Below, piece by piece: positions 5,983-29,542 of a stretch of DNA of 64,000 bases. The notes below the pieces were generated by a model, which did no database searches, had not been told where the DNA came from, and was given only the letters and a program-made list of their open reading frames with translations. Source of the stretch: Hippopus hippopus. Taxonomy: Eukaryota > Mollusca > Bivalvia > Cardiida > Cardiidae. Made by a program: the position numbers and the translations under genes. The stretch is from NCBI GenBank assembly GCA_946811185.2, contig OX328096.1:66773345-66837344 (forward strand), in the 5' to 3' direction. Positions within the stretch are counted from its first letter, which is position 1. The number at the start of each line of letters is the position of its first letter.

Positions 5983-6774
5983 TCAGTATTTTTTCTTCAC
6001 AAAGCCTTTCTTTTTTCTTTTCCTGAAGCCTGTCGATTCCTCAGTGTCGTCATGATCATCATCATCACCTTTCCTTTTCTTTCGCTTCCCTTTATCTCTC
6101 TCTCTTTCACCCATTTCTACTTTCGCATGTCGCTGTGCCTCCGCCACTCTCTCCATCAATACCATGACTTCGTCTTCCTCTGTCTTATACAACGGAAGCT
6201 GTTTACCTATCAAATGTTCTATACGCTGATACAGTTCGACATCATACTGTGTGACAAATGTTATTGATTTCCCAGATCGGCCAGCTCGGGCTGTTCTGCC
6301 AACTCTATGGATGTAATCTTTCGAGTGTGTTGGAATATCAAAGTTTATCACAACATCAACATGTGGTATGTCTAAACCTCTACTGGCAACATCAGTGGCA
6401 ATTAAAATTGATCTAGACTTACTTTTAAATTTTCCAAGAGCCCCAAGTCTTTTAACCTGACTCATTTGTCCATGCAGAGGGATAGCCATAAGGCCAAGAT
6501 TTCTCAACATCAGAGCAACCCTTTGGGTATTTGCACAGGTACCACAAAATACCATGAACGAATTACCGGCCAATTCATTCAAAATGTACACAAGATAGCA
6601 GTCCTTGAATTTGACTGGTATAAAGATGTAAAACTGTTGCAGTTTATCGACAGTCTGATACTTGGATGACACTTCTACTTTTACAGGATCTTTCAGTGAT
6701 GCTCTTTGTAGTTTGGCTACTTTCTTTGTCATTGTGGCTGAGAACAAGTATGTACTTCTCTCCTTAGGAATCAC
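5983..6774 (-). CDS. DDX47: DDX47 DEAD-box RNA helicase, coding exon 2 (residues 196-458)
   Basis: This exon encodes the C-terminal RecA-like lobe of the helicase begun at 13771-14355. The 3' splice site is TACATTTCAG directly before GTG (6774-6772), so exon 1 ending ..KILQ continues in phase 0 as [14 protein letters not shown]. Motif III is SAT at residues 207-209. Motif V lies in [10 protein letters not shown] at 321-330 and motif VI in [11 protein letters not shown] at 351-361. The tail is very basic, with KGKRKKRKG at 423-431 and RKRKKK at 446-451, likely nucleolar localisation signals interrupted by an Asp/His patch. The combined length of 458 is close to that of human DDX47 (about 455). 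The frame is intact to TGA at 5983-5985, where a transposon begins two bases later. Confidence 0.95.
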
Positions 6775-12300: not shown

Positions 12301-13770
12301 TTTTTTTTTCCCGTATAAAAAACGCAAAATCATGGTACTGACCATGAGTGCAGACGAACGCACTTGGCTCACTTAACTCATATAACAAACGACAACTTGG
12401 AGGCTTCAATGGCTACATGCAAAATTATTTACAGCCATTGTAGAAGGGTATTCTCAGTGCGACATGACCAATGTTTATGCACAATGAAAAGAATTACCTT
12501 ATATGTATTCATATGTAAAATTAATTACATTTTGGTAATTGATCTTCAATAATTTGCACTCGCATTTTTTTTCGCGTGCTTAAAATTTTTGCTCGAATTT
12601 TCCAATTCTGACTCACATTTTGCGAGTAAATACATAGGAATTTCAAACCCTAACTATCAAAAACATGCAAATTCATACTCTGAGGTATAAAGTCATCAGT
12701 TATAGGTAAAAAAAAAATCAAAATATTAATTAAACAGCCGGTATCAGTATGGCTATGAAACTATCTACTTGGACACCTAAACTTGCACAACACAAAAATC
12801 TAGTGTGAAGTTTCCTCTCCACAATTAACTTTTTTTACTGGGCCTTTTCAATACTGTATTAGGTCTACCACAGAAAATTACAACTTACCAGTCTTTCCAT
12901 GTCAAAACACATAGTCTTTTTTAAAGATAAATCGTCATGGTAAAAAAAACATGAAAACTCATGACAAAAAAAAAAATGTCAAAAAGACCTTATCCAATCA
13001 AAAGCCCTTCAATCTGTCTTAATCAGCTTCGATAATGACTTTTATCAGCTGACTTGCATACACACCATATAGAAAATAAAACAGGAACTAATGCCTCTGT
13101 TCATTCACCAGAAAAAAGTTTATTATAAGGTTAAATGTGTTCCAAACTTTTTATGTTTTGTCAGTATTTTTTCCCAAATCTTGACATTTGTCGATGATTT
13201 TTTTTCCCAATTTTGCCAGCCTTTTCCCAAAATGCCTGTATAAAGCCCTGATTTAATTTGCATTTGTCAAGACTTCTCAATTGTCATGTCTCATTATTTT
13301 TCACTCACCCAAACCTTTGGATTACCCGTCATGACAAGCAAAATTTTCAAATTTTGCTAGTCTGATTTTGATATACATTTTCTTCAGAAAGGACAGATAT
13401 ATCAGAAAAAGTCAAAACTTCCACAGCTGTTATGCATGGAGGCTGTACAAATAAACGTTCGTATGATTTTGAAAGAAACATGCTGCAGAAAACAAAAAGG
13501 TATTTCATAGCACTTTAATGATGGTGCTGCTAAATTTTGAATAAAAGTGCTATGAAATATCTCAATGTTATGTAGAAAACAGCACAGCAAAAAAGTGAGA
13601 TACTAGAAAAAGTTGCCCATAATGAGCAGTTTCTCCTTTTTACTTTCTTTTACAAGAATATCTATTCATAATTTTTGTTCTTGCTTTATACACTACTTCA
13701 CCCTGATATTTTCAAAGTTTTCTGTGCCATGTTTCTGTCAAAAAGCTATCACCAGTAACTTTGTTCTCAC
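9390..13770. other. Largely unassigned AT-rich intron sequence with a recurrent 14-bp motif
   Basis: I see no coding exon here: reading frames are short and none shows a recognisable domain. TTAACATCCGTTAC or a close variant occurs at 10184, 10375, 10549, 10891, 11239 and 11605. A short inverted repeat around TATTTCATAGCACTTT lies at about 13500-13560. CACTTGC/GCAAGTG-type short palindromes occur near 11850. Confidence 0.5.
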
Positions 13771-14355
13771 CTGCAAAATTTTGTCAAGTTCTTTTTCAAA
13801 ATCCATGTTTAGGATTCGATCTGCCTCGTCCATCACCAAGAACTTAAGTGACCTTAAGTTAAACCCCTTGGTGTTCTCCAGATGATCTACCAGCCTGCCA
13901 GGTGTAGCTATGATAACATGAGGTTTTTTTGCCAGCATCATGGCCTGGGTCATCATGTCTATTCCGCCAACAATAACGCAACATTTCACCCCGATCGTAG
14001 CGCCAAGTGCTTCAAACTGCTCCGATATCTGAAAAGCTAGCTCCCTTGTAGGTGTCATTATCAGAGCAAAGAGACGCTGAGGTGTCTCTAGGAGTTTTTG
14101 AAGTATCGGTAGAGCGAAGGCCCCAGTCTTCCCTGACCCTGTCTCGGCTAACCCAATCACGTCTTTCCCAGACAAAGCTACTGGTAGTGCCTCTCGCTGA
14201 ATCTTGGTAGGTGTCTTCCATTTCAGACTGTCACAAGCTTCACATAAAACATCTTCTACCCCAAGTGAACGAAATGTTACTTCAGAATCATCCGTCTCTT
14301 CAATTAATTCATCTGCATCACTTTCATCCGACGAACGTTGCTCAATTTCCGCCAT
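13771..14355 (-). CDS. DDX47: DDX47 DEAD-box RNA helicase, coding exon 1 (residues 1-195)
   Basis: This is the N-terminal RecA-like lobe of an ATP-dependent RNA helicase of the DDX47/Rrp3 group. Members act in the nucleolus on pre-rRNA for 40S subunit production. An acidic leader (residues 1-25) precedes the Q motif (F28; Q53 in PTKIQ). Motif I is AETGSGKT at 70-77, motif Ia PTREL at 102-106, GG at 130-131, TPGR at 151-154 and motif II DEAD at 176-179. The wording around these motifs ([32 protein letters not shown]) is characteristic of DDX47 rather than of other DEAD-box proteins. The start ATG at 14355-14353 gives MAEIEQRSS. The exon ends at CAG|GTGAGA. There is no sign of decay. Confidence 0.96.
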
Positions 14356-15632: not shown

Positions 15633-17925
15633 GTGTTTTAACAGAACAGAACAGAACAGAACATTTTATTGATTTAACCTGTACAGGTTATCATCACATA
15701 TTATATTTATAATCATCAAACTACATTACGTGAATCATGCCCTAGACAGAAAAAAATCTAATATGATAAGCATACTATCGTATAGAAGAGAAAAAAAAAA
15801 AAAAAAAATATGGAAACTGAATAGAAATTAGTTATAAAGGTGTAAATTGCACTACTAGTAAAACTGGTACCATCTAATACAGAATTTGAGATGAAAACAA
15901 ATTAGGTACCAGTTAGTTCATTACGTAATGAAAAAGCCTCATATATATAATGACCTAGCTTCTTTATTATAACTGGGTTTTTGGAATTTAACAACTCAAC
16001 AAATTTGTACATGCTGGGTCTAACATGGTAATATTTTTTAATGTATTTCTTTCTTAGATGCAGGTAGATCGGACATATCAAAACGAAATGAAATTCGTCC
16101 TCTATGTCCGCCCTAGTGCATAAATTACAAACTCGTTCATGTCTATCAAGTCTATTGCTACCATGGCGACCAGTTTCGATGCTTAGACGATGGGATGAAA
16201 GACGTAGCTTAGATAAAACAATTCTATATTTTTTTGGAAGGAGATCTAAATATGATTCAAAACTGACCGTAGATTTAAAAAACTTATAAGAGCACATCGA
16301 GCTTTGCAATACTATTTCGTTACACCATGTCTGTTTGAAAACATCAATAGCTCGACTTTTAAATAAAACATGAAAGGTTTTCAAATTGACAGTATACGGA
16401 TCATAAAAAACGTGAGAAAAACCGTAATTGTCAAGTAATGTCTTTACATTTGACAACCAGTTCCTTTTATTGGTTGAAGTACATTCATTAAACATAAGGT
16501 TATAGACAGCCTTAATAATTGAATTATTACTTAGTAATAATTGGCACCAATACTTTATGATTCTTCCGTATCTATTTATACTTAAAGGATAGCGTCCCAA
16601 CTCCCCATATACGCCTAGAGTACTGGTTGATCCCTTAACATTTAGAATGCGCTTGCAAAAATTTAGATGTACTTTTTCGATGTCGTTGAACGTACCATAG
16701 CCCCAAACCTCGCTCGAATAGTGTAGAATCGAACCAACAAAAGCATCGAATAATTGAAGTTGAACTGAAACTTGTATATCGTATTTATTAATGTTACTTA
16801 AAAGGGTATTCAATGCTTTATACGACTTTCCAACTATAGTCTCCTGATTTTCCCTAAAAGAACCAGTGTAATTAAAAACTGTACCAAGATAATTAAACTT
16901 GTCAACGACAGCAAGAATATCTTGGCCAAAATGCCATTGTTCATCAGCGCGTAAACCCCCCCTTTTGCGAAAAACCATAACTTTTGTCTTTTCAGTATTT
17001 ACAGAAAGCCCCCATCGATCGCAATAAACATTCAGTAGATCCAGCCTGCGTTGAAGATCATTTGGAGAATTGCCAAAAATAACCATGTCGTCCGCAAAAA
17101 GAAGTATTACTAACAAAATATCATCTAACCTGAAGCCACATTCAGTATCATCTCTCAAAAAGGTTTCTATATCATCAAGAAATAAAGAAAATAAAACAGG
17201 GGAGATAACCTCTCCTTGTTTCAATCCAACGATGCAGTCAAAGAAATCTGAGTAGGAGTTATTCCCCTTTATACAAGTTTTTACTATGCTGTACATATTT
17301 TTTATGATGCGTAACATTTTTCCATCTATACCTAATCTAAACAGTTTGTACCAAAGATTACAATGATTAATGCTATCAAACGCCTTTTTCAAATCGATAA
17401 AGGCACAGTATAGCCGTCCTTTATCGTTCAGAACTTTATTAACTATTGCATTTAAAATGAAAATTGCATCTATTGTTGATCTGCCAGCCCTAAATCCAAA
17501 TTGTGCATCACTTAGTACATTATTATTTTTAATCCATTCATCTAACCTTTTGTTGATGACTCCAGTAAATATTTTAGAAAAGCAGCTAACAAGTGTAATT
17601 CCTCTATAGTTTTTGACGTCATTTGGATCGTTCTTTTTAAAGATGGGAACCAAAACACCTTTGGTCCAAAGCTCCGGAAAATGGCCACTATCTAAAATAG
17701 CATTAAATATATCAACTAAATGTGAGCCTAAGATATCAAAGGATTCGATAAAATATTCATTCAAAAGGTTATCTCCTGCGACAGATTTATTTCTCTTCAG
17801 ATTACGAATGACCGCGCTTATTTCGGCTACAGTTATAGGTTTATCGAGTTCCTCGAACGTACTTCGAGTGTTATCAAAGTTAAAGTTTTCACTAAAATCG
17901 AATGCTTCGGTGTCATTAACCATAC
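15633..17925 (-). mobile_element. 5'-truncated LINE with intact reverse transcriptase
   Basis: On the minus strand the element ends with an AATAAAA-like signal and several GTTCT units (15641-15664), a microsatellite-type 3' end seen in several LINE clades. At the other end the sequence switches near 17925 into family B sequence (CTCTGTGAAAA..GGCTTAACGCATCTG), so the copy was truncated during insertion there. No endonuclease domain or ORF1 is present. Confidence 0.8.
15902..17923 (-). CDS. LINE reverse transcriptase (ORF2 without its endonuclease part)
   Basis: A 673-residue uninterrupted frame from ATG at 17923 to TAA at 15902. RT motifs in order: NYRGITLVSCFSKI at about 105-118, QFGFRAGRSTIDAI near 141-154, motif A AFIDLKKAFDSINH with D177, motif B GLKQGEVISPVLFSLFLDD near 233-251, motif C FADD at 276-279, then SVNTEKTKVM. 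A Cys/His cluster near the C terminus (VCNLC..H....C) is the usual LINE tail. The frame stays open about 15 codons upstream of this ATG, but those codons lie in family B sequence, so the native start is lost. The intact frame suggests a recent insertion. Only retrotransposon function is implied. Confidence 0.92.
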   Translation of the reverse strand: MVNDTEAFDFSENFNFDNTRSTFEELDKPITVAEISAVIRNLKRNKSVAGDNLLNEYFIESFDILGSHLVDIFNAILDSGHFPELWTKGVLVPIFKKNDPNDVKNYRGITLVSCFSKIFTGVINKRLDEWIKNNNVLSDAQFGFRAGRSTIDAIFILNAIVNKVLNDKGRLYCAFIDLKKAFDSINHCNLWYKLFRLGIDGKMLRIIKNMYSIVKTCIKGNNSYSDFFDCIVGLKQGEVISPVLFSLFLDDIETFLRDDTECGFRLDDILLVILLFADDMVIFGNSPNDLQRRLDLLNVYCDRWGLSVNTEKTKVMVFRKRGGLRADEQWHFGQDILAVVDKFNYLGTVFNYTGSFRENQETIVGKSYKALNTLLSNINKYDIQVSVQLQLFDAFVGSILHYSSEVWGYGTFNDIEKVHLNFCKRILNVKGSTSTLGVYGELGRYPLSINRYGRIIKYWCQLLLSNNSIIKAVYNLMFNECTSTNKRNWLSNVKTLLDNYGFSHVFYDPYTVNLKTFHVLFKSRAIDVFKQTWCNEIVLQSSMCSYKFFKSTVSFESYLDLLPKKYRIVLSKLRLSSHRLSIETGRHGSNRLDRHERVCNLCTRADIEDEFHFVLICPIYLHLRKKYIKKYYHVRPSMYKFVELLNSKNPVIIKKLGHYIYEAFSLRNELTGT

Positions 17926-17986
17926 TCTGTGAAAAAAGGCTTAACGCATCTGAAAAAAATAACGACCCAGGTCAGACTGCGCTACC
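17926..17986. mobile_element. Family B remnant at the LINE 5' junction
   Basis: CTCTGTGAAAAAAGGCTTAA, CGCATCTG, ACGACCCAGGTCAGACTGCG: the left third of family B, cut by the LINE. Confidence 0.7.
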
Positions 17987-18109
17987 TAAACATTATTGGA
18001 AAAGGAGAAAATGCTAGTTATCAGCATTTTCTCCCTTTTCCAAAATGTTTTCAAAAGGCTTCTTTCTCAGGGTCCTTAAAAATCGGGATTTTGCGGTAAA
18101 GGGTTTTAA
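17987..18109 (-). mobile_element. Family A half element, reverse orientation
   Basis: The hairpin GGAGAAAATGCTAGTTATCA with its complementary arm lies at about 17994-18053. AGGCTTCTTTCTCAGGGTCC and GCGGTAAAGGGTTTTAA follow. The other half is absent. Confidence 0.8.
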
Positions 18110-18134
18110 AAGTTTCATTCATCACGGAGATGCA

Positions 18135-18363
18135 TTAACCCATTACCAAACAATCCCGAGTTTTTATGACCCTGAGAAAGAAGCCTTCTGAAAACATTGT
18201 GGGAAAAGAAGAAAATGCTGGTAACCAGCATTTTCTCCTTTTCCCACAATGTTTTCTACCCTTCCCAAAACAAATTTCAATTTTTGAGTCACGTTAATTT
18301 TGTCGTCTGCAAATGCTTCCAATTTGGACTAGTCTAAAATTATGTCGTTTGGTAAAGAGTTAA
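18135..18363 (+). mobile_element. Family A hairpin MITE, complete
   Basis: TTAACCCATTACCAAACAATC at 18135 and TTTGGTAAAGAGTTAA ending at 18363, with a long inverted repeat at about 18192-18255. It was probably inserted into a family B copy: GGAGATGCAT is on its left and AGAGCATGGCTCAT, a family B end, is about 10 bp to its right. Confidence 0.88.
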
Positions 18364-18542
18364 ACCCCCTTCTCCTAGAGCATGGCTCATTCTCAGATGT
18401 CGCAGGAGGTCGCGGGTGTATTTGACACTGAGAGTTAATATTTTATTGACATTGAACCATTCAGTTGCTGAAGCGAATAATTACACTATGGAGGACAGAG
18501 TGGATAAAAAATTACAATAGTCGATGGGTTACAATTGTTAGA

Positions 18543-18866
18543 GCAAGGACTTGAGAACAGCCCTGAAAAAGCATGTTTTGCTGGCCATGAAGATTCTGGT
18601 ATATATAATGTGAGAAAATCGCCGGCGATATGTTCAGAAGAGCGCCTGTGAACCCGCCCGCATTCATATTAATTCTTTTCTCAACGCTGACCTTTGTTTC
18701 GACGATGGTTATGTGAGAAAGCAGCCACTGGCTTGGAAAGAGTATTGTACGGAGCACTGGTAAAAGAAACTCCAGAAAAGCATGGATAGGTGCACTGAAC
18801 GCCGCGATATAATTAAAAATAATGTTGAAAACGGCGTTAAACACCACACAATCAATCAAGCAGTCA
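18543..18866 (+). mobile_element. tRNA-derived SINE, divergent head
   Basis: The body ACGCTGACCTTTGTTTCGAC, GTGAGAAAGCAGCCACTGGC, AAACTCCAGAAAAGCATGGA and GGCGTTAAACACCACACAAT matches the copy at 60468. The tRNA-like head is poorly preserved. Confidence 0.75.
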
Positions 18867-18889
18867 ACCAATCGCGGTGCCTCATTTAG

Positions 18890-19120
18890 TGATGCACAGG
18901 GCTTCAAGGTGGGGGGGAGGGGGTGTCGCTGGTTTGATTTCTCGACCAGTGTCTGTCCGTGAATTCATGATAAGCCAGGACAGTATTCATTTCCCTCTTG
19001 CCGTTGAACAATGTTTTTAGACGATGTTTTTATGGGAAGGCAGTCAGTTGCTTTGGAGGAATATTGTGTAAAATGCTTGTAAAAACTACAGGAGAGCAAG
19101 GACATGTGCTCTGACTGCCA
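18890..19120 (+). mobile_element. tRNA-derived SINE truncated by a family A insertion
   Basis: GTCGCTGGTTTGATTTCTCG (B-box type), AGGACAGTATTCATTTCCCT, GGCAGTCAGTTGCTTTGG and AAACTACAGGAGAGC follow the SINE body. It breaks off at CTGACTGCC, where the family A element starts with TTAACCC. Confidence 0.7.
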
Positions 19121-19122
19121 CG

Positions 19123-19712
19123 TTAACCCTTGACCACACTATCCCGAGTTTAAGCGATTTTGAGAGAGAAAGCTGTTGAAAACATTGTGGGGAAAAGGAG
19201 AAAATGCTGGTAACCAGCATTTTCTCCTTTTCCACAATGTTTTCTACTCGACTTAAAGTAACAATAGCCACCAAAAGTAAACAAAGCGGATGTTTAAATG
19301 CATTTAAATTGAAACCGTACCATTTAAAAGTATGGAATTTATTGTGAAGATGACAATCTGTTATTGTAGGGTCGGTCCAAGTACTAGTCGCTGGTAGAGA
19401 AATTAATTTCAAAAGCTACGTTAACAGTTGCCAGATCACTCTATCTTTTGTTTACTTTTTGCCTGATTTTGAAATTATTTTTCTGCCAGCGACTAAGACT
19501 TAGGCTGACCACACAATGACAGACCTTCACAGTATTTTCCATACATTTAAATGGTATGGTTTAAATTTAAATGCATTTTAACACCTGCATTGTTTTTCCC
19601 GCTATTGGGCCTTTAAAGTAAGTTTCATCATTTAAGTCACCCTTGATTTGTCGTCTGCATATGCTTTTGATTTGGAAAAGTCTAAAATTTTGTCGTGTTG
19701 TAAAGAGTTTAA
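19123..19712 (+). mobile_element. Family A hairpin MITE interrupted by a family D element
   Basis: The left part, from TTAACCCTTGACC through the hairpin, is 19123-19252. The right part with TTTGTCGTCTGCATATGC and TGTCGTGTTGTAAAGAG is 19617-19712. The 360 bp between them are a family D copy. Confidence 0.82.
19253..19616. mobile_element. Family D palindromic MITE nested in family A
   Basis: Bounded by TTAA at 19253-19256 and at 19613-19616. Internally symmetrical: ATGCATTTAAATT..ACCATTTAAAAGTATGG and TAGTCGCTGG near the left reappear as complements (CCAGCGACTA, CCATACATTTAAATGGT) near the right. It is younger than the host family A element. Confidence 0.8.
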
Positions 19713-19999
19713 CGCAATACAAACAAAACAAAATCTTAGCAAGGCCCACAAGAGGTAAATATATGTAGCATACATGGCGATTATTTCCCAGAAGATAAAC
19801 TCTTCATGTTTCGTAAGAGCATTTTTGTTTTCAAAGATGAGGCATGCATCATTGGATTTTCGTGTTGTAGCTAGTGTTTGCGAGTGTTGTTTCACAATTA
19901 ATGAGTGTAGTTCTAGTAAACCTCTGTCGTAAAATTAATGGTGCGTTTTTCATTCCTCTACTTATATTATGTGCTTCGAATTTTCAAGTCTTCACATAA

Positions 20000-20019
20000 T
20001 TATATTTCAGGTTCCAGCT
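20000..20019 (+). promoter_or_regulatory. Probable 3' splice site and start context of the polymerase-helicase gene
   Basis: ATAATTATATTTCAG ends at 20010 and is followed by GTTCCAGCTATGG, an ATG nine bases into the putative exon. The pyrimidine-rich AG makes a good acceptor for a 5' UTR intron. An in-frame ATG at 19969 lies on the intron side, so 20020 is the preferred start. The matching donor is not identified; GGTAAAT near 19754 is one possibility. Confidence 0.6.
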
Positions 20020-23000
20020 ATGGTCAATATAATTCTTTGCGGGACAGCTGGTACTCGGAAACACAGGCTTATTGAAGAACTTAAGAGAAGATGCCAAGCT
20101 TTACAAAGACATGTTGTTATACAACACACCGTAAGCCGTGTTCTTGACCGTTTTGGTATACGCTGTGGAAGGGACTTCAACCGTGACGACAGCAAATATG
20201 AGGCCGTGCAGAGAGAAATTATTATGACACAGTGCGATGCAGAATTACAATGTCAGTCTGAGTATATAACGGACAACTGCATAGTGGGATCTTTGGTACA
20301 TGTTCATCTCTGCTTGGCGAATGAGACCTTACTAGAAAGCCTGAGCTCGACGCCGGAAGTAAAAGAAGTATTGAAAAGATACCAGTCAAATTTAGTTATC
20401 TTACTATGTTACAACTCGGTGCACAAACAGCGAACCGTAGGACTGCAGTGCAGAGCGGACAAGAAGAATACTGCTGAAATAAGAGCAGCGTACAGGGAAG
20501 TTTTAGATAAATATTCCATACCGTTTGTGGAAATAGGGAGCACAGAACTAGATGTACAAATGAAAGTCCTCAATAAAGCAATAGTAGGTGACATACCCCT
20601 TTACACTGCTACACTTGAAAATTACGAATCACAAAAGAAGGTTGACCAAGGCAAACAATGTGCTAATAGTGTTAAAGTGCAAAAATCGTTTTCGTTTTTC
20701 AAGAAAAGTTCGCACAAACAGCAGACGATACAAATACCAACTATAAAAGTGAAGGAGCAATCTTATGAGCAGATTTGGACCAGCTATTCCGCTAGAAAAA
20801 CAAACAGATTTATTTCTGTGCACGGTCATGAAAATTTGGCAAGCATTGAATTTCAACCTTCAATACGGTCAACTCGTGTTCAGAAGACATTATTAAATGG
20901 ATTGAGAATCAACGGTGAGCTATATACATTTTTAGGGTGCAGTTCTGGGGGCATGAAAAAACGAAAATGTTTCTTGTGCAAAGGCAAAGAAGAGCATGGT
21001 CAGGTGTTGATTCAAGACCTTGGAGATTTTAATGCCATAAAAACTGTATCAAAAAGGTTGGCAAGAATCTCTTTGCTTTTCACAGAAGTTCAATTGACAA
21101 GCATACAAATATACCAAAAAGACATTTACAAGATGGAAGATATCGTGATTAATGGACACACCTTCACGGATGGATGTGGTTTGATTGGGAGAAATTTGGC
21201 TGAAGATATTTGGTCTGAAATCAAGCCCGCTACCATTGATGACTATTTACCAGCAGTTTATCAAATGCGACTTCATGGATATAAGGGTGTTCTAGCACTG
21301 GATGCGAATAACGCCAATACTGACAAGATATTTGTCAGACCATCAATGAAGAAGTTCAGTACTGACCAACTCCCAAAGTTTGGCATATGTGACTTTTCAA
21401 TGCCAAATACATTTGGAAGTCTAAACAAACAGTACATCATGCTTCTATCTGGACTTGGAATCAGAAATGAAGTCTTTTTGAATAAACAAAAAGAGTACAT
21501 TGACTTGCTTGAATCTATGACTTGCAACCCGGAGTCTGCTATCATGATGCTGCAGTGGCAAGATAATTTTCAAGCTGCACAGCTCATTACCAGAGCTGGC
21601 AGTATAGATGCAATACCAGAACCTCATAAAAGATATGTTCAAAATGAGCTAAAAAACTTAAAACAATATCTAAAGGGTAGGGTTGAAAAATTGAGTATCT
21701 TAATTCCAGAGTCAAGAAATTTGTTCGGGATATGTGACCCCATCAGCAAACTTGACTATGGCGAGTGCTTCCTGAGGCTGACAATATCTGGAAAGCCTAG
21801 GAGTATCAGGGGAAATGTTGTGGTATGTAAGAACCCATGTTACCTCTCTGGAGATGTTCGAGTTCTAAAAGCTGTGACTGAGGCTGACAAACCAGAACTG
21901 AAGAAAATTCATCACTTGTTAGATTGTATTGTGTTCCCGTGCAAAGGTAAACGACCCCATCCTGCAGAAATAGCAGGTTCAGATCTAGATGGAGATAAGT
22001 ATTTTGTTTCCTGGGCTAAGGCATTGATACCCACTATCGTTAGACCACCATATGATTACCCCGCAGTTAGTGCCAAGAGTGAGGGTGAAGTTACAATGGA
22101 AAAAATCATAGAATATTTTTCAAGACAAAATGAAACAGGCAAACTAATGGGTAGGATAAACAACTATTTCATTCGCTGGGCTGATGAGAAAGGAGTAAGC
22201 TGTGACGAATGTGAGAGACTTGGACAACTCTTCTCAAGAGCTGTAGACGCTGTGAAAACTGGGGATGCTCTCGATATACCTCTGGGTCTTGTACCGCCAA
22301 CAACAGATTCTGATAATTTCGAAATAAAACAGGTCTGGCAGATAATGACCAGAGAAGCTACCAAATACAAAGACACGTTTGCTGAAAGTCTTATCAAAGA
22401 ACTAAAAACTGATATCTCCCCGGAGTTTGCATTGGAAATAATTAGCAATGAGTGTACAAACATTTCTGAGTTTGAAAAGTTCAAGTTTGCTCTTTCATAT
22501 CTGCAGAAAACACCAGACCTCGATATGGCAGCTTGCATTGAACTGTTCATCGACAAATATTACCCATTCATTGATTTTGGAAAATTCTCAATTCTGGAGA
22601 AGCGAGAGGCAGTTCTCATAGGATTTCCTAAAGGCTTGTTACTAAATGCTTTGATGAAATCTGCTATTTTATCCGAAACAGACCTTCAATATTTCTTTAT
22701 GGATAATCCAGAGTGTAGATGGAACCACTTGATATCAAAAGACCAAGATGAATTTGACTGGAGGCATCTTTTGAAAGCTTTGACAACATATGACAAAATG
22801 TTACTCGTCTTTGAAATGCCTGATGGGGTCATAATCCAATTACAGTTCCACGAGAGACAAACTGTTGGTAAAGAGATTGTTGTTGATCCGGGCACTGTTA
22901 CAGCTGTTTTCATTTCAAAACATTTTGGCTATCGAAACAAATATATTATCGGTCCATCTTTTTACATCGATCTTACAGAGGACACTTTGCAGTTGTACCG

Positions 23001-25734
23001 CGATAAGAAAGTTAATAGAACACTGATTTGGTTAAAAGCAACTGATAGGAAAGTCAGCAGAGGTAGATACAATAAAGCTTTGTCGGACGAAGTTGTTAAT
23101 TCTGTCAGTATGGACATACAAAGATTCCCGTCTGTGAATAGTAAAGGAAGACACCCATTAATAAACAAAATTCCTTTTGGGGGGATAGAATTGTATGCAC
23201 AGAAAGCTGGCAGTGAAACAGCTTACTGGGACATATACGATACAAATGTTACTGGCGATGTACCGGAGGAGATGCAAACAGAAACCGATGATGAACAAGA
23301 TATCACCGCTTTAATGAACAAGGAGGACCTCTTTCCGGTGATTTCCTTTGACGAAAGCATTGAAGATAACACCAGCGAGGAAGAATTCCAACAGATTTAT
23401 GGGAGTGTTAGTAAAACATGTAATCCTTTCCTATTTCTATCTTTATTTGAGAAGTATCCATTCAAACCAGACGAAGCACTGGATCATTTTATTGCGCTGC
23501 TAGAAAATATCTCGGCCATGGTAATACCGTTTCAGCTACCGGAAAATGTTAGTGCTACAATTGAGAAAACTACTCTAAGTATCATAGGAGCACTTGAAAC
23601 GGGTACAAGCGGTGTCATAAGTCATTGCAAAATCATAAGGCTAACATGTTACCTGTGTAGACTGTATATGCCTGATACAGCACAACAGCTCATTGCAAGA
23701 TTAGGAAACAAGCTTCCTTCAAGCACAGACTCATTTTTGGAATCATTAGAAATTTTGCCATCTTTCTGGGCTTTGGACATAAATATGAAGCAGGATATTC
23801 TGCGACTATTGTATCGCTCTGTGAGTGATGAAGCGGTTAGTATCAAGGATGAGGAGTGTAATGTTTCCATCTATGATGGGGCATACACAAGGAATCTGAG
23901 ACTGTACCTTAGGAAATACGCTTTTTTGCACGGGCTTCATCTAGTTTACGACATGCATACACACTCTTCTTCAAGAAGTGCAATAGAATCACTTACAGAT
24001 CTCAAACTTGACAAAACAAGCCGGGAGAATGAGATTCTTCTAACCTTTTACAAAACATCTGCAGTTTCAGTGTCTGATAGTTTTTTGATTGGACAATTTG
24101 TTACTATATCTCTGCAAAAACTAGTCCAGGAGAGACCTTCTGTCAGGTCTGTCTGTGCTTCAGGTGTTATTCATAAATTGATAAAAGCACCATTATCTAT
24201 CACCATAAAGGTCGACCATGCCATTCCGAGTATTCTCCAGTCTGCGTTTAAGAACACCGGCGTGAAATACTGGCGCATTGACATCGTTGGAAATATCGTG
24301 TCCTACAAAAGATGTGCTGCTGCAATGAAGTCTTTGTGGATGAATAACAGTGAATCTACCTTAATTCATATCCTTACCAGCCAAGATGAAAGTAATCAAG
24401 CTGAGGCAATTTGTCACCAAAGTGAACAGCTTGACTCGCGCGCCGAAATTCACTCGGAGAATGAAGTATCTGATCTTCTTAATCAAGAACAAAACACTGC
24501 TGTTGTTACTGCTTTAAAAGAGAAGATATGCTTGATTCAAGGACCACCGGGCACTGGTAAAACCAAGGTCGCATGTAGCATTGTAAAGCGCGTTATTGCA
24601 GAAAATACGTACAAAGGTGTACTCGTGGTTGCAGAGACGAATGCGGCGGTCGACAACTTGGCCAGACGACTTCGAAATGATTTGCTGATCGTACGATTAG
24701 GCACTACAGCGGCAGACGATTTATATGATATCACGCTAGAGGGGAACCTGAGGAATATTGCAGCAAAAGAAGCAAGAAAAACAGATTATCGGGATGAGTT
24801 CGGAGAAGCCCATAGGAACCCAAAACTTGTTAAACGTATAATTGCCGCCGCTGATGCAGTGCTGGCTACTTGTGTGGGTGCTGGTGAACTTTCATTGATT
24901 GAGCAGACTTTTGAATTTATAATTGTAGATGAAGCCACCAAAGTAATGGAAACTACACTGTTGTGTAGTCTTACACATGGAGCGAAACATCTTGTTATGA
25001 TTGGCGATCACAAGCAGCTCGGTCCATTGGTCCCCGACGACCCAGGCATACCACATCTGGATGGCCTACCGAGTATAAGAGAACTATCACAGTCTTTGTT
25101 TCATCGATTTTTGAGCGTCCTGCCCGTATGTGTTTTAGAAACCCAGTACAGGATGCAACCGAAACTTATGGAATTCCCATCGGCAGAATTTTACGAGAAC
25201 AGACTTAAAGCTGCCGAAATCACCAAGAAACGAGATCCAGTTGAATTCGACTGGCCAGCCGGAAAGGACGTCCCCGTTTGTTTTATCAATGTTGAAGGCA
25301 AGGAAAGGAGACAAGGAAATTCGTATATAAATGAGAAAGAAATAGAAATGGTTCAGAAAGTGATCAAACGACTGTTGAATTGTAGTTATGATCCTAGTAC
25401 AAAAGATGATCGGCCTATCAGTGTGGAAGAGATTGGAGTTTTGACATTGTACCAAGGTCAAGAGAAAGCTCTACGAAAATGTCTTTCTAGAGGCATTACG
25501 GTGAAGTCAGTTGATGGATTTCAAGGTCAGGAAAGAGACGTCATTATCGTCAGTACAGTGAGATGTAACGATCGAGGGAGTGTTGGATTTTCAGGCGATG
25601 CCAACAGAATTAACGTGCTGTTAACCCGAAGTAAGCGAGGTCTTATCGTTATAGGCAATCGACGGACGATTGAGGCAGCACCAATTTGGGAAAGATGGTT
25701 ATCAAGAGTTGAAACTCAGAACTGGTCGAACTGA
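20020..25734 (+). CDS. Cellular RNA-dependent RNA polymerase fused to a UPF1/ZNFX1-like SF1 helicase
   Basis: Intact 1904-residue single-exon frame. Residues 1-195: P-loop kinase-like domain with a degenerate Walker A, GTAGTRKH at 8-15. Residues ~280-765: eukaryotic RdRP fold. GELYTFLGCS, KGVLALD (from 422), RPSMKKF, PCYLSGDVRVLKAV (GD at 611-612) and the catalytic DLDGD at 655-659 in GSDLDGDKYFVSW follow the order in plant, fungal and nematode RdRPs. Residues ~765-1465: no recognised domain. Residues ~1470-1895: SF1 helicase with GPPGTGKT 1508-1515, TNAAVDNL, DEAT 1637-1640, GDHKQLGP from 1662, QYRM 1709-1712, DGFQGQE and NRINVLLTRSKRG (from 1862). Family knowledge: such RdRPs make secondary small-RNA precursors or dsRNA, and ZNFX1/SDE3/UPF1-type helicases act on the same templates. 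A role coupling unwinding with copying is inferred. All key motifs are conserved, so it is probably active. The RdRP and helicase calls are very secure; the N-terminal assignment is moderate. Confidence 0.96.
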   Translation: MVNIILCGTAGTRKHRLIEELKRRCQALQRHVVIQHTVSRVLDRFGIRCGRDFNRDDSKYEAVQREIIMTQCDAELQCQSEYITDNCIVGSLVHVHLCLANETLLESLSSTPEVKEVLKRYQSNLVILLCYNSVHKQRTVGLQCRADKKNTAEIRAAYREVLDKYSIPFVEIGSTELDVQMKVLNKAIVGDIPLYTATLENYESQKKVDQGKQCANSVKVQKSFSFFKKSSHKQQTIQIPTIKVKEQSYEQIWTSYSARKTNRFISVHGHENLASIEFQPSIRSTRVQKTLLNGLRINGELYTFLGCSSGGMKKRKCFLCKGKEEHGQVLIQDLGDFNAIKTVSKRLARISLLFTEVQLTSIQIYQKDIYKMEDIVINGHTFTDGCGLIGRNLAEDIWSEIKPATIDDYLPAVYQMRLHGYKGVLALDANNANTDKIFVRPSMKKFSTDQLPKFGICDFSMPNTFGSLNKQYIMLLSGLGIRNEVFLNKQKEYIDLLESMTCNPESAIMMLQWQDNFQAAQLITRAGSIDAIPEPHKRYVQNELKNLKQYLKGRVEKLSILIPESRNLFGICDPISKLDYGECFLRLTISGKPRSIRGNVVVCKNPCYLSGDVRVLKAVTEADKPELKKIHHLLDCIVFPCKGKRPHPAEIAGSDLDGDKYFVSWAKALIPTIVRPPYDYPAVSAKSEGEVTMEKIIEYFSRQNETGKLMGRINNYFIRWADEKGVSCDECERLGQLFSRAVDAVKTGDALDIPLGLVPPTTDSDNFEIKQVWQIMTREATKYKDTFAESLIKELKTDISPEFALEIISNECTNISEFEKFKFALSYLQKTPDLDMAACIELFIDKYYPFIDFGKFSILEKREAVLIGFPKGLLLNALMKSAILSETDLQYFFMDNPECRWNHLISKDQDEFDWRHLLKALTTYDKMLLVFEMPDGVIIQLQFHERQTVGKEIVVDPGTVTAVFISKHFGYRNKYIIGPSFYIDLTEDTLQLYRDKKVNRTLIWLKATDRKVSRGRYNKALSDEVVNSVSMDIQRFPSVNSKGRHPLINKIPFGGIELYAQKAGSETAYWDIYDTNVTGDVPEEMQTETDDEQDITALMNKEDLFPVISFDESIEDNTSEEEFQQIYGSVSKTCNPFLFLSLFEKYPFKPDEALDHFIALLENISAMVIPFQLPENVSATIEKTTLSIIGALETGTSGVISHCKIIRLTCYLCRLYMPDTAQQLIARLGNKLPSSTDSFLESLEILPSFWALDINMKQDILRLLYRSVSDEAVSIKDEECNVSIYDGAYTRNLRLYLRKYAFLHGLHLVYDMHTHSSSRSAIESLTDLKLDKTSRENEILLTFYKTSAVSVSDSFLIGQFVTISLQKLVQERPSVRSVCASGVIHKLIKAPLSITIKVDHAIPSILQSAFKNTGVKYWRIDIVGNIVSYKRCAAAMKSLWMNNSESTLIHILTSQDESNQAEAICHQSEQLDSRAEIHSENEVSDLLNQEQNTAVVTALKEKICLIQGPPGTGKTKVACSIVKRVIAENTYKGVLVVAETNAAVDNLARRLRNDLLIVRLGTTAADDLYDITLEGNLRNIAAKEARKTDYRDEFGEAHRNPKLVKRIIAAADAVLATCVGAGELSLIEQTFEFIIVDEATKVMETTLLCSLTHGAKHLVMIGDHKQLGPLVPDDPGIPHLDGLPSIRELSQSLFHRFLSVLPVCVLETQYRMQPKLMEFPSAEFYENRLKAAEITKKRDPVEFDWPAGKDVPVCFINVEGKERRQGNSYINEKEIEMVQKVIKRLLNCSYDPSTKDDRPISVEEIGVLTLYQGQEKALRKCLSRGITVKSVDGFQGQERDVIIVSTVRCNDRGSVGFSGDANRINVLLTRSKRGLIVIGNRRTIEAAPIWERWLSRVETQNWSN

Positions 25735-25748
25735 GTCCAGGGATCACA

Positions 25749-25916
25749 TTCACCAACTATTCTTAAGAATATTCTTAGTCTTATGGTAAAATAAAAAGGA
25801 ACAAAGCTTCTGATTGGCTGGGCCATTTGGTTTAGCCAATCAGAAGTTGTGCTACTTTCAAATTTAGAAAATTCTTGAGAATAAGACTAAGAATGATCAT
25901 AAGAATGGTTTGTGAA
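25749..25916. mobile_element. Family E palindromic MITE in the polymerase gene's 3' UTR
   Basis: The outer arms TTCACCAACTATTCTTAAGA and, reversed, TTCACAAACCATTCTTATGA enclose a nearly complete palindrome. Its centre holds CTTCTGATTGGCT..AGCCAATCAGAAG. It starts 15 nt after the stop codon. AATAAA at 25790-25795 inside it is a candidate poly(A) signal. Confidence 0.8.
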
Positions 25917-25999
25917 TACGAATTTTGGTTGACTCATCGATAGTGCCGTAAATACATCTGTTTGGATTGTTGAAGCAATTATTTCTAACTACTTAGCTC

Positions 26000-26226
26000 T
26001 AGCCTTTTTACCACACGACAAAATTTTATACTATTCCAAATTGAAAGCATTTGCTGACGACAAATTAAATGTGGCTGATGATAAAACTTTCTGTGAAAGG
26101 GTAGAAAATATGTGAAAAAAGCAGAAAATGCTCGTTTCCAGCATTTCTCCAATATTTTGTCAATATTTTCAAAGGCTTTCTTTGTCAGGGTCGTTAAAAC
26201 TCGGGATTGTATATTGAAGGGTTTCA
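26000..26226 (-). mobile_element. Family A hairpin MITE, reverse and worn
   Basis: TTTTTACCACACGACAAAATT at the left, GACGACAAATTAAATGTGGC, a hairpin with several mismatches around GCTCGTTTCCAGC, then CAGGGTCGTTAAAACTCGGG at the right. Confidence 0.8.
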
Positions 26227-26299
26227 AGATACCATGATTAGAGGACGCGAAAAAATGGAACAATAGTCCGTGAATTTTTTGCTGGTTTTTTTTTTTACG

Positions 26300-26350
26300 T
26301 TCATTACGTCCCTGATATATATACATGTATATATGTTTTTTTTATCAAAT
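26300..26350. repeat. T-rich / TATA simple sequence
   Basis: A TATATATACATGTATATATG palindromic stretch next to poly-T tracts. Confidence 0.6.
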
Positions 26351-26392
26351 GCCTTTGTTTCGATGCATGTGCAGAAAAAAAAAAACCCTTGA

Positions 26393-26765
26393 TTAAAGTG
26401 ACAATAAAGCCCAAAAGTTAACAAAGCGGGTGCTTAAATGAATTTAAATTATACATACTATTTAAAAGTATGGAAATTATTGTGAAGATGACAATCTGTT
26501 ATTGTATGGTCGGCCCAAGTGTTAGTTGCTGACAGAGAAATTAATTTCAAAACTATGTTAAAACCTGCCAGGTAGCTGTGTCTTTTGTTTACTTTTTTCC
26601 TGATTTTAAAATTCTTTTTTCTGCCAGCGACTAACATATGGCCCGACCACACGATAAGAGACTGTCATCTCCACAATATTTTTCATACTTTTAAATGGTA
26701 TGATTTAAATTTAAATGTATTATGACACCTGCTTTGATATTTTGGCCTGTGCTGGGCCCAATATG
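26393..26765. mobile_element. Family D palindromic MITE
   Basis: TTAAAGTGACAATAAAGCCC at the left, CATTTAAATTA..TTTAAAAGTATGG inside, CTGCCAGCGACTAACA and TTTTAAATGGTATGATTTAA in the right arm. The right terminus after GGCCTGTGCTGGGCCC is degraded. Confidence 0.78.
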
Positions 26766-26960
26766 TTGACTTTCATAAAGCCGCATTAAGACGTCTCTGT
26801 AGGCCTTTACAATAGACAGCTATTGAAATGGTAGACGGAAAAGAAGCGACTGTCTGTTATAAACAGTCGGTCCTTTGTTGTGATTGTTTTCAATATTGTA
26901 CAAGAAAGGTCTAAATTGCTCCATACAGATATCTCTCCTGTGTTGGCCTATTTTTTGCAC
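26766..26960. other. Spacer with a short inverted repeat
   Basis: CGACTGTCTGTTATAAACAGTCGG at 26846-26869 is a perfect-looking hairpin. Nothing else is recognised. Confidence 0.4.
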
Positions 26961-26964
26961 CACA

Positions 26965-27190
26965 TTTAACCTTTACCAAGCAATCCTGAGTTCAAACGAC
27001 CCTAAAGCATAAGACTTTAGAAAACATCGTGGAAAAAGGAGAAAATGCTGGTAACCAGCATTTTCTCCTTTTTCCACAATGTTTTCTACCCGTCTCAAAA
27101 CAAGTTTCAGTTCTTAGCCACATTAATTTTTCCGTCTGTAAGTACTTTTAATTTGGGCCAGTCAAACATTTTATCGTTTTGTAAAGTCAG
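26965..27190 (+). mobile_element. Family A hairpin MITE
   Basis: TTTAACCTTTACCAAGCAATC at the left, a near-perfect hairpin at about 27024-27084, and TTTATCGTTTTGTAAAG at the right. A smaller family A fragment in the opposite orientation follows at 27249-27360. Confidence 0.85.
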
Positions 27191-27524
27191 CTATTGTTGT
27201 CAATATTTAACTCTAGAAATTTCGGATAAAAATTTAAAGATGCTACCATATTGAAAGCATTGTAGACAACAAAGCAAATGAGGCTCAAATGATTCTTGTT
27301 AGTATTTTCTCCCTTTTCCACAATATTTTTGAACTGGCAACTTCTTCCCCAGGTCGTAGAACTCTTTGTCGTTTAGTAATTATTTATTTATTTACGTTAA
27401 ATAAGATTAAGAAAATTAATGATTTTCTTTCTAAACGCATGATTTTGTGTCACCACAGTAAATAAATACACTACAGAGAAGAAGAAACTCGAAGACTTAT
27501 CTGTATGAACAGAAAATAGATAAA

Positions 27525-27764
27525 TGAGCAACACTCCGGAAAAAGGGGGCTTAATGCATCTTCGTGATGTGTTATTGTAGATTCACAACAGCCACGTTGT
27601 TTAACAACATATTTAATCATGAGGTAGACTTGTCCTTGGACATACAGCAAATTGACCAATAGCGCAAAATTTCGGCTCAGGTCAACTTGCGTGGACTGCG
27701 CAGGCTTACCTGGGCCGAAATGTTTCGCAGATACAATTAGCCCCCTTTTGCGAGAGCCCGGCTA
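27525..27764. mobile_element. Family B MITE-like element
   Basis: TGAGCAACACTCCGG at the left and CCCCCTTTTGCGAGAGCCCGGCT at the right. The central inverted repeat AGGTCAACTTGCG..CGCAGGCTTACCTGGGCC is imperfect. Confidence 0.78.
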
Positions 27765-27902
27765 AAATGGAAAATGCTTTTGAATGTTTCCTTCAAATGT
27801 TGAAGAAACTCTTCGAGATATTATCTTGCTTGCTCTGCTTCTTCAGTAAACCAAGCCGCGCATTTCGTCCGGGAGGACAGAGGGTTCACCAATATTTACC
27901 CC

Positions 27903-28112
27903 TTAAACCTTGGGCTATTCAGCGACTCACTGACCTTTTGCGGGCAGTATAGATGAAGATCAGACTGCACATAACGTGCAGTCTGATCCTGGATCTACAC
28001 TGTCCGATAGGGAGATACCTTTCCCCCAAAATTACCTTTGAAATAGCAAAATTTGGGTTTTTACTATCGGTTTGAAAGTTTCATTTCACTTATTTAGCAG
28101 GATAAGGGTTAA
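27903..28112. mobile_element. Family C MITE
   Basis: Bounded by TTAA at 27903 and 28109-28112. The hairpin at about 27952-28007 surrounds the palindrome CTGCACATAACGTGCAG. ACTGACCTTTTGCGG flanks one side and CCGATAGGGAGATACC the other. Confidence 0.82.
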
Positions 28113-28296
28113 ACTGACTTTCAGTGGGGGGTGGGGGGTTGGAGTTCATTCTGTGCTGTTTTGGGGGAAAACTTAAACAGAGGGTAGCGTAGATCTGAGA
28201 TCAGACAGCACGATTTAACTCCTTAGAGAGCCAAGCATATCTTAATCGTTCTTGCAGACCATGAAGATCAAGATCAGGTTTCGCTTTGTGGGCCGA

Positions 28297-28614
28297 GTCC
28301 CGGTAGCACAGTCGGTAGTGTACAGGACTTGAGAGGGGGGGGGGCGGGGAGGGGGGCAGCTGGTTCGAATCCCCCCATGTTGGAAATTTCTTTCCGAGGA
28401 TTGATAAAAGTCAATGTGACGGGATTCATTCCTCTTTCACCGCTGATAACTGTTTCGACGATGGTTGTGTGGGAAAGCAGCCAGTGGCGTGGGAAGAATA
28501 TTGTGCGAAGTACTTGTAAAAGAAACTTCAGAGAGGTATGGATAGTTGCACTGACCGCTGCGATGTAACTGAAATAATGTTGAAACGGTGTTAAACACCA
28601 TACAATCAATTAAT
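28297..28614 (+). mobile_element. tRNA-derived SINE
   Basis: The head GTCCCGGTAGCACAGTCGG leads to a G-rich insertion (about 28335-28358) in the anticodon-arm region, then GCTGGTTCGAATCC. The body and GTTAAACACCATACAATCAA tail match the copy at 60468. Confidence 0.88.
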
Positions 28615-28816
28615 GCGCCTTGGTGGCAATATAGATCAAGAATACTCTGCAGAGCACGTGCAGTTTTATCTTGGATCGATACTGTTTGCCGGTTTTTGTA
28701 GAACTCTATAGCAAAACAGATCAACCCTGTTTACAATTAGTGTTCTATAGTTTCCCTTCTGGGCCTGCGCACGACAAGTCAGAACGGCAGTTCACTATAC
28801 TAGTATCTCGTACACA

Positions 28817-29032
28817 TTAACTCTTTCCATACCATAGACGACACCAGAAGCTTTTGTGGACAGTGTAGATCAAGATCAGGCTGCACAGAACGTGCAGTCT
28901 GATCTTGATCTGCACTGTCTACTGCTACATTCTAGATTATGACCGAACTGTCTCTTGATCTTGCAGAGGAAAATTTTGTATTTTTAGCCTTTGAGAAAAT
29001 GCAATTTATTCATTCAGCAGTGAAAGAGTTAA
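28817..29032. mobile_element. Family C variant (CCATAGACGACACCAGAAGC flank)
   Basis: TTAA at 28817-28820 and at 29029-29032. The core GGACAGTGTAGATCAAGATC..GATCTTGATCTGCACTGTC is preserved. The right flank GAGAAAATGCAATTTATTCA.. recurs inverted at 60855-61068, defining a sub-family. Confidence 0.82.
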
Positions 29033-29076
29033 CCACGCCGCCCCGCACAAGTTAACATCAACAATCTTTCTCTTTA

Positions 29077-29314
29077 TTAACCCTTTACCATACAATCCCG
29101 AGTTTTAACAAACAATCCAGAGAAAGAAAGCTTTTGAATGCATTGCGGGATAAGGCAAAAATGCTGGTTATAAGCATTTTCTCATTTTCCCACAGTGTTT
29201 TTTTTTCTACCCTTCGAAAAACATTTCAATTTTTGAGCCACCTTAATTTTGCCGTTTGCAAATGCTTTCAATTTGGACAAGTCTAAAATTTTGTAGTTTG
29301 GCCTAGACGGTTAG
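29077..29314 (+). mobile_element. Family A hairpin MITE, mutated core
   Basis: TTAACCCTTTACCATACAATC at the left. The hairpin arms have several mismatches (AAATGCTGGTTATAAGCATTT at the centre). TTTGCCGTTTGCAAATGC and GTAGTTTGGCC lie at the right. Confidence 0.82.
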
Positions 29315-29542
29315 CAAAATATAGACAAACTGGATTTGACATGCTCAGTCAAGAAAACAAACCAACATACAGTAACCTATGCACAGGTTCAAGCGTGTAC
29401 ATGTATTTGAAACAATATATTATCACTTGTAAAGTGTACATTAAAGTTTAGACTGCATTTGTAAAATGTACATTAAAGTTTAGACTGCACGTTACATACA
29501 GTCTATCTTGATCTACGCTGTTCCTAATAATCTTGATTTACA

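Follow-up and report, generated by a model that had tools for sequence, protein, structure and literature searches.

A fused RNA-dependent RNA polymerase and SF1 helicase of Hippopus hippopus belongs to a widespread eukaryotic protein family and may synthesize double-stranded RNA for defense

In nematodes, small-RNA amplification is carried out by separate proteins, EGO-1 and ZNFX-1. For animal RNA-dependent RNA polymerases (RdRPs) beyond nematodes, the role is called an open question in the available text of two papers (PMC6396948, PMC6085071). A lancelet protein, BL02069, was remarked by Pinzon et al. 2019, in a figure legend, to carry AAA_12 in addition to its RdRP (PMC6396948). This is the only earlier mention of an RdRP-helicase fusion that we found in the accessible parts of the PMC literature, and mention elsewhere is possible. 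The word "helicase" is absent from the main text of the same paper in its available form (PMC6396948), and the main text of a paper on mycorrhizal-fungus RdRPs, as far as it is available, contains neither "helicase" nor "AAA" (PMC6399891). Two other papers mention both TLDc and RNA-dependent RNA polymerase (PMC8005160, PMC6191289), and from their excerpts neither appears to treat an RdRP protein.

The window, which is the whole 64,000-nucleotide stretch of Hippopus hippopus DNA analyzed here, contains a single uninterrupted, intron-free frame of 1904 codons plus stop on the forward strand. The features of this gene are as follows.

20003..20010, + strand: putative 3' splice site TATTTCAG of a possible 5' UTR intron, ending 9 nt upstream of the ATG (sequence)
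20020..25734, + strand: coding frame (translation; start backed by MVNII in relatives)
20020..20634, + strand: predicted NadR/thymidylate-kinase-like P-loop domain, residues 1-205
20041..20064, + strand: destroyed Walker A, GTAGTRKH, consensus GxxxxGK[ST] (motif alignment)
20797..22293, + strand: RdRP domain PF05183, residues 260-758 (Pfam, E 8e-111)
21982..21996, + strand: RdRP catalytic motif DLDGD, residues 655-659, intact and fitting DxDGD
22651..23205, + strand: predicted TLDc-like domain, residues 878-1062
23377..23967, + strand: predicted fast-evolving, all-helical region, residues 1120-1316 (structure model; identity to P0002)
23989..24291, + strand: predicted 1B beta-barrel of the SF1 helicase, residues 1324-1424
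24457..25719, + strand: SF1 helicase motor, residues 1480-1900, AAA_11 and AAA_12 (Pfam, motifs)
24541..24564, + strand: helicase motif I, GPPGTGKT, residues 1508-1515 (motif)
25606..25629, + strand: helicase motif VI, RINVLLTR, part of NRINVLLTR from residue 1862 (motif)
25790..25795, + strand: AATAAA, a possible polyadenylation signal (sequence)

By chance alone, stop-free runs reached at most 246 codons when the window was simulated 40 times with a first-order model, versus 1904 here. The stop-to-stop opening begins at 19939 and comprises 1931 codons, with its earliest ATG at 19969; the start codon at 20020 is preferable because the MVNII opening of the N-terminus is shared by P0002 to P0005 and P0009 in the alignment of relatives (P numbers denote gathered proteins). 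P0002, the closest relative among the matches listed, is 82% identical across 100% of the query and lies on a 2.68-Mb contig. Since it carries the same RdRP-helicase join, which recurs in 109 further gathered proteins, we ruled out an assembly chimera. The sequence-only reading had described one uninterrupted 1904-codon frame uniting an RdRP and an SF1 helicase, and this was borne out by translation and by Pfam, where PF05183, AAA_11, and AAA_12 all score above their cut-offs on the translated frame. Each motif it had quoted (KGV, LSGDVRVLKAV, DLDGD, GPPGTGKT, DEAT, GDHKQLGP, QYRM, and NRINVLLTR) was found. Its account of the domains was thus right for the RdRP and helicase, but it overlooked the N-terminal kinase-like and TLDc-like domains.

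Judged by domain and catalytic motif, the window protein is a eukaryotic cellular RdRP, PF05183 being matched at 372 bits against a gathering cut-off of 23.8. Among PDB sequences, the nearest solved RdRP is RNA-dependent RNA polymerase 2 (RDR2; 182.6 bits), with QDE-1 reaching 28 bits at best, and the PF05183 core is common to both of these and the window protein. Outside RdRPs other than RDR2 and QDE-1 were scanned for the remaining domains, and P0166, P0167, P0168, P0179, P0182, and also P0180 carry neither the TLDc-like domain nor an SF1 helicase. One of them, P0182 (2309 residues), is itself a fusion, though of another kind: its RdRP is linked with an SF2 helicase (DEAD/Helicase_C) and PF22600.

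The helicase half contains the full set of SF1 motifs I, II, III, IV, V, and VI, with DEAT starting at residue 1637, GDHKQLGP at 1662, and QYRM at 1709, and it scores 180.4 bits for AAA_12 and 121.4 bits for AAA_11 against cut-offs of 27. Compared with PDB sequences, it matches UPF1 best (208 bits), followed by NAM7 (205.5), SEN1 (136.5), and ZNFX1 (115.4). The label "ZNFX1-like" given in the sequence-only reading therefore does not hold: although the SF1 helicase core is common to both, the ZNFX1 rows form a long branch distinct from the group of the window protein in each of the two helicase trees, and on these scores and this branch we dismissed ZNFX1 kinship. The ZNFX1 zinc-finger models PF25396 and PF20173, borne by the reference ZNFX1-type proteins P0115 and P0118, are absent among the 24 Pfam matches of the window protein up to E 1. 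By sequence, the helicase is nearer to UPF1 than to ZNFX1, yet it is neither one. UPF1 shares the SF1 motifs, but its CH domain (PF09416), found in the reference UPF1-type proteins P0104 and P0109, is likewise missing from those 24 matches, and the two UPF1 rows cluster with HELZ2/HELZ, away from the fused helicases, in two helicase trees (supports 81 and 89/90).

These comparisons bear on a reading in which the protein serves RNA surveillance, the UPF1-type helicase spotting aberrant host mRNA and the RdRP copying it, so that the resulting dsRNA would be destroyed or edited as host quality control. The proximity to UPF1 among solved helicases speaks for it, as does the source label "regulator of nonsense transcripts 1" on P0067, P0151, and P0152, which is a similarity label only. 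Such labels can mislead, for P0151 and P0152 are RdRP-only proteins that likely had theirs carried over from fused relatives. The missing CH domain argues against host surveillance, and the patchy occurrence of the RdRPs suits defense better, together with the induction of cnidarian RdRPs by poly(I:C), which, according to the available text, raises Nematostella RdRP1-3, proteins that may or may not be of the fused type (PMC8476169). We regard surveillance as a doubtful explanation.

Between the two enzymes lies a domain that is predicted to have a TLDc fold. We call it only TLDc-like because its match to PF07534 (TLDc) remains under the Pfam gathering cut-off, at 13.3 versus 24.5 bits; with E up to 10, PF07534 matches 5 of 12 family members, the best at E 0.0014. 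This sub-cut-off score also sets the window sequence apart from the TLDc proteins OXR, NCOA7, and mEAK7. Against PDB sequences, the sole match of the TLDc-like domain profile was "hypothetical protein SO2946" at E 0.41. NCOA7 is a binding partner of V-ATPase subunits and has an interferon-induced form with antiviral activity, as stated in the accessible passages of PMC8005160; by analogy, we would guess at an NCOA7-like V-ATPase role for the TLDc-like part of the window protein. In the stretch that includes the helical region (residues 1100 to 1316), identity to P0002 falls to 71%, versus 87 to 88% in the RdRP, TLDc-like, and motor parts.

The N-terminal domain is predicted to have a NadR/TMK-type P-loop kinase fold; its NadR match (E 0.03) amounts to 13.4 bits against an NCBIfam cut-off of 201. 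It differs from the NadR ribosylnicotinamide kinase in its destroyed Walker A and its fusion to an RdRP. In many relatives, the Walker A reads GASSVGKT. By family profiles, the domain is carried by 78 of 111 fused proteins, and the Walker A is intact in 59 of these 78, with the window's protein counted and some of the other 19 being N-terminally incomplete.

Relatives were gathered with the whole protein as query (best 120 of 228), with its RdRP part (48), and with the fused protein P0142 of the coral Stylophora (best 120 of 133). Domains were called at a domain E below 1e-4 with profiles built from family members, so that counts within the family lean toward it; the outside RdRPs and helicases served as the control. 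Counted in this way, 111 of the 260 proteins, that of the window among them, combine RdRP and helicase; their median length is 1923 residues. The RdRP precedes the helicase in all 111, the TLDc-like domain lies between them in 109 (it is missing from P0098 and P0173), and DxDGD is present in 110, the helicase Walker A in 109, and motif II in 106. Some of the 111 are incomplete in the helicase, Rotaria P0099 and Attheya P0127 holding only its start. A further 49 proteins, many of them short frames, have an RdRP without the helicase, 33 of them with the TLDc-like domain, while of 100 with the helicase and no RdRP, P0101 alone has it.

The organism is named in the source of 29 proteins that we checked, and 26 of them are among the 111. 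They come from bivalves (Mercenaria, Mya, Dreissena, and three Mytilus), cnidarians (Hydractinia, Dendronephthya, and Stylophora), sponges (Dysidea, Ephydatia, and Oopsacas), lancelets (three), crinoids (Antedon and Anneissia), rotifers (two Adineta, Rotaria, and Brachionus), fungi (Funneliformis and Gyalolechia, the latter a MAG), diatoms (Seminavis and Attheya), and a dinoflagellate (Effrenium). The others, Rotaria sordida P0157, Pycnogonum P0165, and Anneissia P0171, have an RdRP without the helicase. P0171, from Anneissia japonica, consists of two tandem, helicase-free units of RdRP and TLDc-like domain, which may be a gene-model error or a real duplication. In the lancelet proteins P0091, P0093, and P0094, RdRP, TLDc-like domain, and SF1 helicase follow one another as in the window protein, but the N-terminal kinase-like domain is missing.

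The sequence-only reading had raised the possibility that the two activities were welded together in this animal. The occurrence of the join in animals, fungi, diatoms, and a dinoflagellate rules out such a lineage-private weld, and the same domain order, which that reading had proposed to look for in mollusks, was found in six proteins of named bivalves and beyond. Its remark that RdRPs are patchy in animals is supported. From these sequence comparisons, the window frame is a member of an old and widespread eukaryotic RdRP-helicase family. A viral or prokaryotic origin gained no backing from a limited profile scan, in which patterns of two short RdRP motifs gave 208 matches in viral contigs and 114 in genome contigs, among which 0 relatives were confirmed.

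Trees of each half had also been proposed; in those built here, no RdRP of a nematode or of a named plant was among the rows. For the first RdRP tree, sequences having a usable D[LM]DGD segment were thinned according to the 4-mers that they share, so that 71 of 140 entered, and later trees used 35, 46, and 19 hand-picked rows of the 260. In the 35-row RdRP tree, 30 fused proteins, including those of fungi and the dinoflagellate, are split as one group from the five outside RdRPs P0166, P0167, P0168, P0179, and P0182 (98/96); the split recurs in 98% of 200 bootstrap trees. The window and P0002 group there with four named bivalves (95/91), as befits the earlier assignment to a bivalve. Among the animal rows of the RdRP tree, the diatom protein P0090 of Seminavis and its relative P0088 fall beside Hydractinia, an unexpected place for a diatom that may stem from transfer or contamination.

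The first helicase tree comprised 49 rows, after P0101 and P0113 had been dropped with an unrecognized Walker A and P0085 and P0142 had been removed by hand; in it, the 30 fused rows make up one side of a branch (1 change, support 81). With wider references (46 rows), 4 changes were needed because some algal helicases mix with deep fused rows, and the best tree does not bring all fused helicases together; a single clade was not rejected (p-AU 0.118). The mixing rows P0102, P0103, P0105, and P0106 are algal and environmental SF1 helicases, possibly unfused relatives of the helicase half. RdRP and helicase distances correlate (r 0.87, with 0 of 999 shuffles as high) over the 27 members that were kept out of 95 after thinning at 60% identity, and we conclude from the sequences that both halves have been inherited jointly over most of the tree.

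Within the window, the minus strand carries a DEAD frame at 13738-14355, whose best PDB match is DDX47 (306.8 bits), and a Helicase_C frame at 5983-6774 (Pfam). These are likely exons of one DDX47-like gene, which agrees with a eukaryotic chromosome as the source. Next to the fused gene, at 15902-17923 on the minus strand, lies a retroelement-like frame of 673 residues that encodes a reverse transcriptase (RVT_1). MITE-like palindromic repeats of about 65 nt flank the gene at 17988-18052, 18192-18256, 19181-19245, 27022-27086, and other places; there are seven copies at >=60% identity in 17000-29500, two of them with arms that are 97% complementary, and the exact core recurs at 2836. Comparison of ten other frames in the window with Pfam yielded one sub-cut-off match (DUF3915) and nothing else.

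An intron-free frame with a reverse-transcriptase frame beside it and palindromic repeats on both sides could be taken for a remnant that has lost its catalytic role or for cargo of a mobile element, a disused intronless copy among repeats. We consider this very improbable. The frame is full and its RdRP and helicase motifs are all intact, likewise in P0002, and the gap in identity between the RdRP, TLDc-like, and motor parts and the helical region looks like selection. Many relatives from unannotated contigs are also full-length frames, suggesting that genes of this family often lack introns, and mobile-element cargo was set aside as the flanking palindromes are dispersed.

What the sequence offers is two enzyme domains with intact catalytic motifs in a fixed order, and a broken N-terminal P-loop. 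As the main reading, to which we give a probability of about 0.5, we propose that the RdRP and UPF1-type helicase, on one chain with the predicted TLDc-like and kinase-like parts, would be a self-contained machine turning ssRNA into dsRNA for antiviral defense. In this scenario, the helicase would load onto foreign or aberrant single-stranded RNA and remove proteins and structure with the energy of ATP, and the tethered RdRP would copy the cleared template; the helicase would be a built-in form of the help that conventional RdRPs may require from partner proteins. The TLDc-like and helical parts might dock or regulate the enzyme, possibly positioning it at V-ATPase-bearing endolysosomes. Where the P-loop is intact, as in sponges and some bivalves, the N domain would likely act as a nucleotide-type kinase, gating the enzyme or feeding it, whereas in Hippopus hippopus it would persist as a remnant without catalysis. 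The reaction would yield long dsRNA for innate dsRNA sensors rather than Argonaute-loaded secondary small RNAs.

A defensive role, rather than siRNA amplification, draws some support from cnidarians, where poly(I:C) raises Nematostella RdRP1-3 (PMC8476169) and a meeting report, in its available text, states that viral-load regulation is lost upon RdRPa1 knockout and terms the four RdRPs conserved within Hexacorallia (PMC12172373); the coral Stylophora has the fused P0142. In keeping with defense, too, one of six RdRP genes of B. belcheri shows presence/absence variation and is missing in 50% of individuals, according to the accessible part of PMC12373286.

The sequence-only reading had suggested small-RNA amplification or dsRNA production. 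In the former, the helicase would feed templates to the RdRP, which would supply Argonaute by making secondary siRNAs or substrates of Dicer. Nematode and plant RdRPs do make secondary siRNAs (PMC12768352, available text), and bdelloids, which hold P0097 and P0099 of the fused type, have greatly expanded RdRPs and Argonautes, their RdRPs being interpreted as RNAi components in the accessible passages of PMC7943196. However, the authors on lancelet RdRPs, at least one of which has AAA_12, speculate in the available text on a role unrelated to RNAi (PMC6396948; repeated in PMC12373286), and secondary siRNAs were undetected in Nematostella despite its four RdRPs, which may or may not be fused (PMC12768352, excerpt). 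The window helicase is not ZNFX1-like either, and on balance we find small-RNA amplification somewhat unlikely.

The defensive dsRNA synthetase can be extended into a bolder and, in our estimate, unlikely version: the kinase would sense or charge nucleotides, the helicase-driven RdRP would make dsRNA from intruding RNA, and the TLDc-like domain would tie the process to V-ATPase and endolysosomes, with no part for Argonaute or Dicer. This five-part enzyme would represent a pan-eukaryotic branch of RNA defense, undescribed to date, whose kinase was silenced in several bivalve lines with the other parts retained. For the family itself, our data mean that a large class of animal RdRPs outside nematodes comes with its own helicase and, by prediction, a TLDc-like domain, frequently with a kinase-like domain as well, and that the helicase join is common to animals, fungi, diatoms, and a dinoflagellate.
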